64,000 bases of DNA. It comes from Pectobacterium parmentieri (GTDB taxonomy: Bacteria; Pseudomonadota; Gammaproteobacteria; Enterobacterales; Enterobacteriaceae). The translations under genes and the position numbers were made by a program. A model generated the notes under the pieces. It worked only from the letters and a program-made list of their open reading frames with translations, was not told where the DNA came from and searched no databases. Positions 36,092 to 41,563 of this stretch are shown here, piece by piece (the stretch's first letter is position 1; every line of letters begins with the position of its first letter). Location of the stretch: NCBI RefSeq assembly GCF_001742145.1, contig NZ_CP015749.1, positions 3,596,001-3,660,000 on the forward strand, read 5' to 3'.

Positions 36092-38345
<2,254 letters not shown>

Positions 38346-38467
38346 TTAACGCATTCAAGCCGCGACGCCAGAGAGATGGCTCACGTTTGTGGTTGAGAGA
38401 CGGGACAATACAGGTGGGATGCGGCGGCGGTGCCTCCGCTTTGGTTTGATAAATGGTGATGTTTATC

Positions 38468-38496
38468 GTAATAGGGACAATTGGAATAATTAACAA
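38468..38496 (-). promoter_or_regulatory. Candidate promoter of the Cascade operon
   Basis: On the minus strand, TTGTTA and TATTAC are separated by exactly 17 bp in an AT-rich patch, about 190 bp before the cse1 start. Each hexamer matches 4 of 6. AT-rich sequence here would also suit H-NS silencing, as in E. coli. Confidence 0.4.
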
Positions 38497-38520
38497 TCTA
38501 TTCATTCCTTCCGTCGTAGT

Positions 38521-38549
38521 TTGATTTCCACGAAATGCGCCGCTAGGAT
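38521..38549 (+). promoter_or_regulatory. Candidate plus-strand promoter facing the solitary repeat
   Basis: TTGATT (38521-38526), a 17-bp spacer and TAGGAT (38544-38549). The predicted start near 38556 is about 11 bp before the solitary repeat and in its crRNA sense. Its position matches the anti-Pcas promoter of E. coli. Confidence 0.4.
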
Positions 38550-38555
38550 GAAATA

Positions 38556-38635
38556 AGATCTTTCTTGCGTTCCCCGCGCCAGCGGGGACAAACCGCGAGA
38601 AGAAAAATAGCGAGAGAGGTTGCCCCTTCTTTTTT
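38556..38635 (+). ncRNA. Candidate single-unit crRNA-like RNA in the cas3-cse1 gap
   Basis: Predicted from sequence only. It runs from promoter-like hexamers (38521-38549), through one repeat in crRNA sense (38567-38595) and a spacer-sized 32 nt (38596-38627), to six T (38630-38635) preceded by a weak stem (GAGAGG with CCTTCT). Cas6e cleavage at the lone repeat would leave an 8-nt handle ACAAACCG plus the 32-nt guide, with no 3' repeat hairpin. This resembles cas-regulating crRNA-like RNAs (CreR) or the CreA antitoxin RNAs described in other CRISPR types. Confidence 0.45.
38567..38595 (+). repeat. Solitary type I-E CRISPR repeat between cas3 and cse1
   Basis: 27 of 29 positions match the array consensus in transcribed sense; the changes are T to C at position 2 and T to C in the 5'-handle (ACAAACCG for ATAAACCG). 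The hairpin core CCCCGCGCCAGCGGGG is intact. It is on the opposite strand from both arrays, and no second repeat follows within 100 bp. Confidence 0.93.
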
Positions 38636-38812
38636 CAGTTCATCAACGCTATAGGCATAAAAATCAGCGCCGCCATTCAAGCCAATAAATTCTCCCCGGA
38701 ACATTTCAATTTCCGAGTCAAAAGCAATAACGGCAGGATGGCCATCAAAAAAGCGCATTTCATACCTATCGGTGAATACTGCGACGACGCCTCACAATGC
38801 AGCTCGTTCCTC

Positions 38813-41536
38813 TCACGAGCCCAATAGCATCAACCCCACCTGTTCGCTATAAAATGCGTGGTTTTCCCCTCGATGCAACAGCAGCACTTCCGCCTGTGGG
38901 CGGTGTAATTGCTGCCGAAACCGTTCCAGTGCCTCACCTTCCAGTATCGGTAATCCGGTTTTACGTTTCTGCCACCAGCTAACTCGTACCTGCACGCGGC
39001 TCTGTTCCCAGGCAAAAGTGTCCGATATGGCATAAGGCTGAGGTAGCTCACCATCGTTTTCTGGTTTCCATGCCAGATACAGATCCAGCGTTTCCTCCCC
39101 CAGACGGGTGGAAATGTCCACTGCATCGCTCCAGCCTGCTTCGCTGGATTGGGCACAATAACCGTGGACAAGCGCTAACGACGACTGACTCGCCACTGAA
39201 CGCTGGCCGTAACGCTCGCCCAGTACCTTGTTGGCTATTGCCTCCAATGCCGGAGGCACCGCGATCTGTTCTTCATACACGCTGTTGATCAGCAGACGCG
39301 CCGCTTCCGGCATTTTGATCGCACCGCACTCACGCAACATCGCCTGCGTGCGCCACAGCGCAGCATGATCGGGGTAAACATAGCCACTATTGCGCAGTTC
39401 ATCGCCCAACCAGTCAGCCTCCGCTTCCGGCTGCCAGACTGGCGCCATGATATGCAGCACCGCTGCCGGGCGCTCATCCGTTAGCGGTGTAGCGTCCGCC
39501 TCAGTTTTACGACGCCCGTCGAGAAACCGAATATGTCGCTGTAGCCGCCCTGCGCGTTGAATCAGCAGATCGATGGGCGCAAGGTCGCTAATCATGTTAT
39601 CGACATCAATATCCAGCGACTGCTCGACAACCTGCGTGGCAATCAGCACCTTACCAGCACGCTCATCCGGCATACTGTCTTTGCCAAACCACGCCAGCGC
39701 CCGCTCTTCAATCGCCATCCGATCGCAAAAGGCAAAACGGCTGTGGAATAGCAGCATATTGTCCTCTGCGACACCCGCCTCAATGAGTTGGCGATAAACC
39801 GCGATAGCATCATCCACCGTGTTCCTAATCCAAGCGATCGATTGCCCTGCCGCCACCGCAGCCTTAACGCAATCAATGCCCTGCAACCGCTCAGTCAGCC
39901 AGCCAATCTTGACCTCGCGCCGCACTTCCTTCCGCGTTTCCAACTTCGTTTCCCGCAATCCTTCACGCGTTAACTGCGTCAGCCACGGATACGTGGCATT
40001 GGGATCGGGCGGAGCAGCCTCACAGGCTATGCCCTGCGCAAACGCCCGCGTCAGCTTTTCTCGCAGAGTAAGCGGTAACGTCGCCGTTAAGATAATCACG
40101 CTGCCGCCCTGCTGTGCATGGAAACCAATCAACAGCTCGATCAGCTTGCTCATGTAGGCGTCATACGCATGTACTTCATCCAGAATCAGCAGTTTATTCT
40201 GTAGCCCTAGCACCCGTAGCGACTGGTGGCGGAACGGCATCACCGCCATCAGTGCCTGGTCGAGCGTACCCACGCCGATATCGGCCAGCAGCGCTTTCTT
40301 GCGTGAGTCCGCAAACCAAATGTTGCAGTCTTTGCTGGCGGCATTTTCTTCCTTGTCGTACTGCGCCTGCCCCTGACTGTCACCTTCCCATAGCGATTGC
40401 ATAAAGGCCGATGACATATGTCGCGCACCGTGCGCCAGCATCAGCGAAGGGTTATGTTCTGGTGAATATAATGCGCGATAGGCTTGCGCCAGCCGTTTAT
40501 ACATGGCATTTGCCGTCGCCATCGTCGGCAGACCGACATAAATGCCGCTCGCTTTTCGCTGCGCCATCAGTCGATGCGCCAGTATCATTGCCGCTTCCGT
40601 TTTCCCGGCCCCCGTCACATCTTCCAGAATGAAAAGCTGCGGACCGTCAGCGGAAATATCAGCCTCTAGCGCTTTCTGTTGTAGCGGCGTCGGTTGCTGC
40701 ATAAAGGGAAAGAGCCGTTGGATAGAATGAAAAGAAGCGGGAGACGGAGTACGCGGCAAACGCGAGACAACCTTTTCCGCTATCGGTAGCGCATGCTCAC
40801 GCCAGTAGGTTTCGAGCGGCATTGGCGTACTGCAATACCAAAAGTCCTGCTGACGCGAACCCAGCCAGTCTGCCAGTACGGTCAAACCAGCCAATCCCCA
40901 GCTTTGTTGCTTCAACCTGTTTCGCCAGCTCTTGTTCGCAAAGCACATAGGAAAAACGGACACTTCAGGAAAGCATGTTGCTACATCATGCAGGTAATCT
41001 TGCACTGCCCGATAATCGTCACGATGAAAGGCCAGACTCCCTTTTTTCACCACCTCTGGCGGCTTGCCGTGGTGCCCGGTAACGATGTTCAGCCAGATAT
41101 CAAGCGTCTTTTGGGAGTCAGAGGTGAGCATGTCCGCAGAGAAAGGTAATAGATCGGGAAAGTCATCACGCTCTTGCCAAAGCCAGAAACCTAACGCGTC
41201 ATGCCGCGCCGTATCGACCTGCCCTGAAGACTGAACCAGCGGGGAATCCGGGTTGATATATTTACGCTGGAAACCACGGGCAAATTTTCCGATATCGTGC
41301 CAGGCGAGAAAATACGCAAACCATGGAGCAACATCATCATCACCAGATGCCAGTTCGCGCAGTACATGGCTAGCCTGAAAATAATTTCCCTTTAACAAGA
41401 AATAACCACAGGCCGCCACATCCAAACAGTGATAAGGCAGTAGGTGATAATCGTCACCCACCAGCGCATCCGTTGATCTATTCGCTTTGCCCCAATAGTG
41501 GAAATAACGCCGGTCGATGATGCCCTCCTTGTCCAT
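38813..41536 (-). CDS. cas3: CRISPR-associated nuclease-helicase Cas3
   Basis: Degrades target DNA after Cascade binding. About 907 aa from the ATG at 41536 (AGGTGG 8 nt upstream); a GTG at 41548 is the alternative. The HD nuclease part shows HCLDVAA and HDIGKFARGF. The SF2 helicase part has Walker A GAGKTEAAM, DEVHAYDAYM and QRAGRLQRH. The C-terminal domain is complete. It is separated from cse1 by 533 bp with a HicB-like remnant, and a bactofilin gene lies close upstream. Confidence 0.97.
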   Translation of the reverse strand: MDKEGIIDRRYFHYWGKANRSTDALVGDDYHLLPYHCLDVAACGYFLLKGNYFQASHVLRELASGDDDVAPWFAYFLAWHDIGKFARGFQRKYINPDSPLVQSSGQVDTARHDALGFWLWQERDDFPDLLPFSADMLTSDSQKTLDIWLNIVTGHHGKPPEVVKKGSLAFHRDDYRAVQDYLHDVATCFPEVSVFPMCFANKSWRNRLKQQSWGLAGLTVLADWLGSRQQDFWYCSTPMPLETYWREHALPIAEKVVSRLPRTPSPASFHSIQRLFPFMQQPTPLQQKALEADISADGPQLFILEDVTGAGKTEAAMILAHRLMAQRKASGIYVGLPTMATANAMYKRLAQAYRALYSPEHNPSLMLAHGARHMSSAFMQSLWEGDSQGQAQYDKEENAASKDCNIWFADSRKKALLADIGVGTLDQALMAVMPFRHQSLRVLGLQNKLLILDEVHAYDAYMSKLIELLIGFHAQQGGSVIILTATLPLTLREKLTRAFAQGIACEAAPPDPNATYPWLTQLTREGLRETKLETRKEVRREVKIGWLTERLQGIDCVKAAVAAGQSIAWIRNTVDDAIAVYRQLIEAGVAEDNMLLFHSRFAFCDRMAIEERALAWFGKDSMPDERAGKVLIATQVVEQSLDIDVDNMISDLAPIDLLIQRAGRLQRHIRFLDGRRKTEADATPLTDERPAAVLHIMAPVWQPEAEADWLGDELRNSGYVYPDHAALWRTQAMLRECGAIKMPEAARLLINSVYEEQIAVPPALEAIANKVLGERYGQRSVASQSSLALVHGYCAQSSEAGWSDAVDISTRLGEETLDLYLAWKPENDGELPQPYAISDTFAWEQSRVQVRVSWWQKRKTGLPILEGEALERFRQQLHRPQAEVLLLHRGENHAFYSEQVGLMLLGS

Positions 41537-41563
41537 AGACTTTACCACCTCTTACCAACTGCC

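Follow-up and report, generated by a model that had tools for sequence, protein, structure and literature searches.

A lone CRISPR repeat between cse1 and cas3 of Pectobacterium is very likely the remnant of a CreR mini-CRISPR

The 64,000-nucleotide stretch of DNA analysed here (the window) contains a type I-E cas locus in which all eight cas genes are open and each has a Pfam family match. Between cse1 (cas8e; 36711-38279, minus strand) and cas3 (38813-41548, minus strand) lies a gap of 533 bp (38280-38812), and this gap houses a single 29-nt CRISPR repeat (38567-38595, plus strand). The question raised by this locus is whether such a repeat belongs to a working guide gene or is left over from something else. 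A sequence-only reading had proposed the former, in the shape of a crRNA-like gene with its own promoter, one repeat, one spacer-length guide and a terminator. Its account of the repeat itself is borne out: the repeat stands in crRNA sense, agrees with the array repeat at 27 of 29 positions and lies on the strand opposite to the arrays and the cas genes, and its handle, ACAAACCG, matches the description given. The repeat cannot be the product of chance. A repeat search of the same genome at E ≤ 0.001 returned 34 matches, namely the locus itself and 33 in arrays, on the other strand. A known RNA family was rejected for the region, the sole match in an Rfam scan of 38200-38900 being Chlorobi-1, below its cut-off (14.4 bits against 50). 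The comparisons set out below make it very likely that the lone repeat is the deletion remnant of a CreR mini-CRISPR (encoding a cas-autorepressing RNA) that is intact in relatives, and not a working guide gene.

For these comparisons the window was taken as Pectobacterium, and 25 genomes of the genus were covered. When the gap DNA was searched against 98 genomes (its own included), 21 gave matches, many of them plain array repeats. The 11 other genus genomes with a gap match were compared, and a twelfth (G016), with one weak match, was left out. Five genomes (G024, G008, G011, G014 and G010) have two repeats in the cas3-cse1 gap, with repeat starts 49-50 bp apart and a spacer of 20-21 nt between them; one pattern search through the 25 genomes returned the same five intact mini-arrays. 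In each of the five, a near-copy of the spacer lies upstream of repeat 1 behind an AAG and agrees with it at 7/7 seed positions (those scored being 1-5, 7 and 8). The guides of these Pectobacterium elements fall into two groups (AGTAT... and AGTAA...), and their targets differ correspondingly. An alternative target in G024 (L038:1421; 15/20, behind AAG) was rejected: its total is higher, its seed agrees at only 5/7 positions, and its counterpart is absent from the four best sites of the other four loci. The PAM and repeat 1 stand 56-92 bp apart in the 15 elements measured. The Pectobacterium target lies about 375-406 bp upstream of cse1, and in this genus a second promoter may stand closer to the gene. 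The roughly 120 bp directly upstream of cse1 (38280-38400 in the window) are nearly identical across four aligned Pectobacterium gaps, with or without an intact CreR, and may hold a second cas promoter that is independent of CreR.

The same layout recurs in other Enterobacteriaceae, in Halomonas and Chromohalobacter, and in Burkholderiales. A scan of named genomes for two repeats with a short spacer found 32 loci, 12 of them in the cas3-cse1 gap or beside cse1: three in Pectobacterium, four in Halomonas, and one each in Pluralibacter gergoviae, Chromohalobacter beijerinckii, Bordetella ansorpii, Pigmentiphaga sp. and a Burkholderiales MAG. In all 12, an AAG-flanked site close to the mini-array matches the guide at 6 or more of the 7 seed positions (6/7 in L059, 7/7 in the remaining 11; in L081 the target is on the other strand). 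The remaining 20 loci, outside such a gap, look by their context like array spacers or chance for the most part.

A survey of Cse1-upstream DNA gave a measure of how specific the AAG is. Cse1 was present in 60 of 392 family genomes, from which 54 upstream stretches were taken (three were dropped, one as a split gene and two as weak matches; another three were in the set already). With 12 Pectobacterium regions these made 66, of which 56 reached 60 bp in length and 37 reached 300 bp; four of the 66 had no cas3 in the stretch. A handle of at least 6/8, an AAG and a core of at least 9/10 were found together on the strand opposite cas in 19 regions (of the 56 of at least 60 bp; 19/37 for gaps of at least 300 bp) and on the cas strand in one. 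When the 63 other trinucleotides served as a control, a core of at least 9 was reached in 56 regions in total, with at most five for any one of them; at a core of 10/10, AAG gave 12 regions and the 63 others six combined. Because this control was not empty, about one of the 19 regions may be due to chance, and two of them, G051 and G166, are doubtful, with oddly placed targets. Other gaps in the survey have repeats of less regular form. In G177 (L101), two repeats stand about 64 bp apart beside MazE/PemK genes, cse1 has two in-frame stops, and no AAG target was found by the survey criterion; this is possibly a further decaying locus. The gaps of G359, G220, G415 and G248 have lone repeat-like stretches (20-25 of 29) in which no guide-target pair was detected, and these are candidates for further relics or for CreRs with more degenerate repeats.

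Guides and targets also match as pairs. In a swap test that left out G051 and G166 for their oddly placed targets, the element's own guide agreed with its target at 9-10 of the 10 core positions in 17/17 cases, and 261 of the 272 swapped pairs scored no higher than 7; of the 11 exceptions, 10 were swaps between sister species. The mismatches that remain are patterned. In a type I-E guide, every sixth base is flipped out and is not read by Cascade. Among the 19 survey elements, mismatches fell at positions 6, 12 and 18 in 12, 13 and 15 elements and at positions 13-17, 19 and 20 in 2, 4, 7, 8, 9, 8 and 8, the set having been selected on positions 1-5 and 7-11, which leaves 12 and 18 as the only fair contrasts. 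A 15-element set, in which positions 9-12 lie outside the seed and which has seven elements in common with the 19, was mismatched at position 12 in 11/15 against 2, 1 and 1 of 15 at positions 9, 10 and 11, and at position 6 in 10/15. At positions 6, 12 and 18 the mismatch rates (63-79%) come near the 75% that applies to bases free of constraint. The guide thus appears to be selected for its use by Cascade.

The position of the target points to a promoter. In 13 of 22 elements the best promoter-like pair directed towards cse1 begins at the PAM, so that the AAG would overlap the -35 box of such a pair in over half of the elements. A null made by single-letter shuffling with the PAM letters kept fixed had a mean of 3.4, and 0 of 2000 shuffles reached 13; with near relatives thinned to 17 elements, 10 pairs began at the PAM against 2.7 expected, again with 0 of 2000. 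This set counts the duplicates G137/L063 and G404/L055 once each and omits targets on the other strand (G409, G171, G166, G051 and L081). Individual promoter scores are mostly no better than those of shuffles; the shared position is. In the relatives, cse1 lies downstream of the promoter-like site overlapped by the CreR target, and their element probably represses a cas promoter.

In the window, the relatives' guide, target and promoter site are all missing, and the DNA that remains can be assigned piece by piece. The cse1-proximal part of the gap (38280-38553) is 93% identical to the CreR-bearing G011 (query 1-274). At 38553, before the target region, the window leaves the path that it has in common with G011, and the deletion that took target, promoter site and guide appears to begin with this part. 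From 38556 onwards there is agreement with G015, a second solitary-repeat relic whose repeat is identical to that of the window. The sequence common to the two, AGATCTTTCTTGCG (38556-38569, plus strand; its last 3 nt are the repeat start), is a probable leader remnant. The 14 nt before the window repeat that are shared with G015 match none of the intact leaders seen, so that the ancestral allele is absent from the set compared. The repeat itself reads as a chimera of the two repeats of a collapsed CreR mini-CRISPR: its 5ʹ GCG agrees with repeat 1 as found in G024 and G014, its TTCCCCGCGCCAGCGGGGACAAACCG with repeat 2 in the five intact relatives, as expected if the repeats had recombined and the guide between them had been dropped.

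Behind the repeat come 19 nt (38596-38614, plus strand) that form the downstream flank of repeat 2; G024, G011 and the relic G015 have them unchanged, G008 and G014 have diverged versions, and G010 has a different sequence. At an 11-bp direct repeat, AAAATAGCGAG (38604-38614), the flank passes directly into a hicB fragment (38604-38746, minus strand; 38600-38746 of the window is 99% identical to G024). A 5-bp homology, CCATC (38742-38746), marks the second hicAB deletion junction and joins the fragment to the cas3-proximal end of the gap (38742-38812), which is 94% identical to G024. Both hicA and the remainder of hicB are missing at this locus, and the HicA family had no match in the window's own genome. 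An open reading frame across the fusion (38543-38758) arose by chance and has no Pfam or NCBIfam match. Matches to the gap DNA in E. coli genomes (1/5426) and in plasmids (3 records) are confined to the hicB part of the query and were rejected as relatives of the element.

This anatomy bears directly on the proposal that the repeat and the next 32 nt (38596-38627) form a self-contained guide for tuning either the cas operon or a linked toxin, a proposal that now has very little chance of being right. It could draw on the crRNA sense of the repeat, on the identity of the next 19 nt in three other genomes, and on the existence of CreA genes with one ectopic repeat, which are mentioned in the available parts of PMC9458426. 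However, the 19 of 32 nt that are indeed kept across relatives are kept as the flank of repeat 2, the remainder is hicB, and the guides of the five intact relatives sit upstream of these 19 nt. Nor was a target found behind AAG, the only PAM tried for this pseudo-guide, in the gap or the genome: within 38280-38812 the best core reaches only 5/10, AAGCGAGANGAAAA (AAG plus seed) has 0 exact genome matches, and with one mismatch allowed it has 7, the reversed control having 11. On these counts 38596-38627 was rejected as a working guide. The hexamers assigned to its promoter, TTGATT (38521-38526) and TAGGAT (38544-38549), are present on the plus strand with 17 bp between them, but they agree with the consensus at 8/12 positions only, and a promoter role is not supported. 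A promoter scan at 9/12 found 0 sites in the window gap (shuffle mean 0.6), the 17-bp spacing is lost in G015 and G024 (two of three aligned relatives), and in G011 the hexamer sequence sits far upstream of repeat 1. The T-run (38630-38635) is likewise real, but it lies in the hicB fragment, and in G024 and G008 the corresponding DNA belongs to hicB; the gap has three terminator-like sites (shuffle mean 0.8), all elsewhere. What stands of the proposal is a crRNA-like regulator beside cas, of CreR type by descent, and what finds no support is a working guide in this copy.

The repeat might instead have been kept for its own sake, as a decoy or RNA-anti-CRISPR-like element whose hairpin transcript ties up Cas6e or Cascade subunits. 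The hairpin is intact and folds, the identical repeat persists in G015, and solitary repeats function as Racrs in viral genomes according to the available text of PMC10651486. Against this, the 9/12 scan left the gap with no promoter-like site, the flanks mark the repeat as the leftover of a two-repeat gene, and the site is within a cas operon and not in a phage, so that the decoy reading is extremely improbable. Some use of the repeat itself, which still agrees at 27/29 positions, is possible. A relic of a CreA- or CrePA-type antitoxin RNA, guarding a neighbouring toxin-antitoxin (TA) pair and not regulating cas, would account for the hicAB or mazE/pemK-like pairs beside the mini-array in G024, G008 and G011, and the review PMC12737573, as far as its text was available, describes CrePA modules with protein toxins. 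However, the mini-array gap of G014 has no open reading frame of at least 65 aa, toxin families and orientations vary, and pairs with antitoxins of their own occur. Moreover, the target position at the cse1-directed promoter-like pair is common to elements with and without TA genes; other target sites were sought in five loci. This origin is highly improbable, and the decayed CreR remains the preferred reading.

TA genes are a feature of this gap in their own right. HicAB, PemK and HigB have been described in the Pectobacterium I-E locus, either beside cas3 or in the cas3-cse1 gap (PMC6963963, 2019), and the available part of that report does not describe the repeat element or the fused hicB debris found in the window. 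Gaps with TA genes are those of G024, G008, G011, G015, G003, G004, G005, G013, G177, G280, G225, G278 and G369. Pfam families identify HicA/HicB in G024, MazE/PemK in G011 and G177 (PemK also in G003 and G015), HigB in G004, CcdA/CcdB in G225, and Gp49 with an HTH partner in G278 (Gp49 also in G369); proteins like MazE/PemK occur in G280, and HigB-like ones in G005 and G013. At least five unrelated TA families (HicAB, MazE/PemK, HigB, CcdAB and Gp49/HTH) are thus found at this position in different genera. The habit may extend more widely than reported in 2019; within the genus, only 2 of the 44 listed HicA matches and 3/11 PemK matches lie in the gap. A conserved pair of genes for proteins of 343 and 252 aa also occurs there (L043 and L089 in G013, L045 and L090 in G012, L047 and L091 in G005). 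The G013 copies, which were scanned, had no Pfam, PADLOC or NCBIfam match; the pair is possibly a nucleotidyltransferase pair of AbiE type.

In the intact relatives, Cas6e-processed CreR RNA would guide Cascade to the AAG-flanked site. Because the partial pairing of guide and target would block transcription without cutting, free Cascade would repress its own operon. In the window, recombination between repeat 1 and repeat 2 would have removed the guide, and a deletion would have taken the target and promoter sites; an inserted hicAB pair would have lost most of its sequence in two more deletions. We infer the order of these deletions. What is left is a hybrid of repeat 1 and repeat 2 that adjoins the repeat-2 flank and the hicB fragment. 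Since guide, target and promoter site are missing, the window copy is predicted to make no functional guide, in which case control of cas there must rest on something else. It is conceivable, if unlikely, that CreR loss is a recurrent switch, in which guide, target and promoter site vanish together, the type I-E operon passes to other control, and diverse TA pairs in the gap take over the task of making cas loss costly. If this were true, the window would represent a late stage, with both safeguards decayed beside intact cas genes.

The lone repeat is thereby explained as a traceable piece of CRISPR regulation that shows how such an element is lost, and the locus cautions against taking a solitary repeat between cas genes as evidence of a guide. 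The comparison also yields a testable sequence signature for type I-E CreRs: a position on the strand opposite to cas, a guide of 20-21 nt, an AAG-flanked target often at a cse1-directed -35 box, and freedom at every sixth core base. This comparative signature is a useful by-product and the part worth keeping.

Three kinds of known element invite comparison. Racr, in the available text of PMC10651486, is like the window in consisting of a single repeat outside an array; here, however, the repeat lies inside a cas gap, derives from a two-repeat gene and belongs to the cas operon of a 5.03-Mb contig, not to a phage or mobile element. CreTA/CreA, as described in the available parts of PMC8501985, PMC9458426 and PMC10097628, has a guide that is set between two degenerate repeats and partly matches a promoter close by, and its repression depends on Cascade. 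Unlike that system, the elements of the relatives have their target on the cse1 promoter side, and the 15 elements measured have no creT, a gene for a toxic RNA, between target and creA; a toxin RNA at this place was rejected, the interval between PAM and repeat 1 leaving no room for it.

The closest likeness is with the CreR of type I-E systems (Liu et al. 2023, Cell Host Microbe, doi 10.1016/j.chom.2023.08.005), known here through the available text of two reviews that cite it (PMC13131331 and PMC12737573), the second of which, from 2025, describes its mechanism. No literature joining CreR with Pectobacterium or Halomonas was found, a result of little weight given that subscription journals lay mostly outside the search. 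Like CreR, the element of the intact relatives is a mini-CRISPR of type I-E beside effector genes, a crRNA-like gene whose cas-type repeats lie apart from the arrays and whose guide is partly complementary to a PAM-flanked and apparently promoter-overlapping site on the cas side. Because the reviews describe a type I-E CreR with which these features agree, the intact element fits a known kind. The window copy differs in having neither the relatives' guide beside its repeat nor a target in the cas promoter region nor the promoter site, and it is best placed as a decayed member of that kind.
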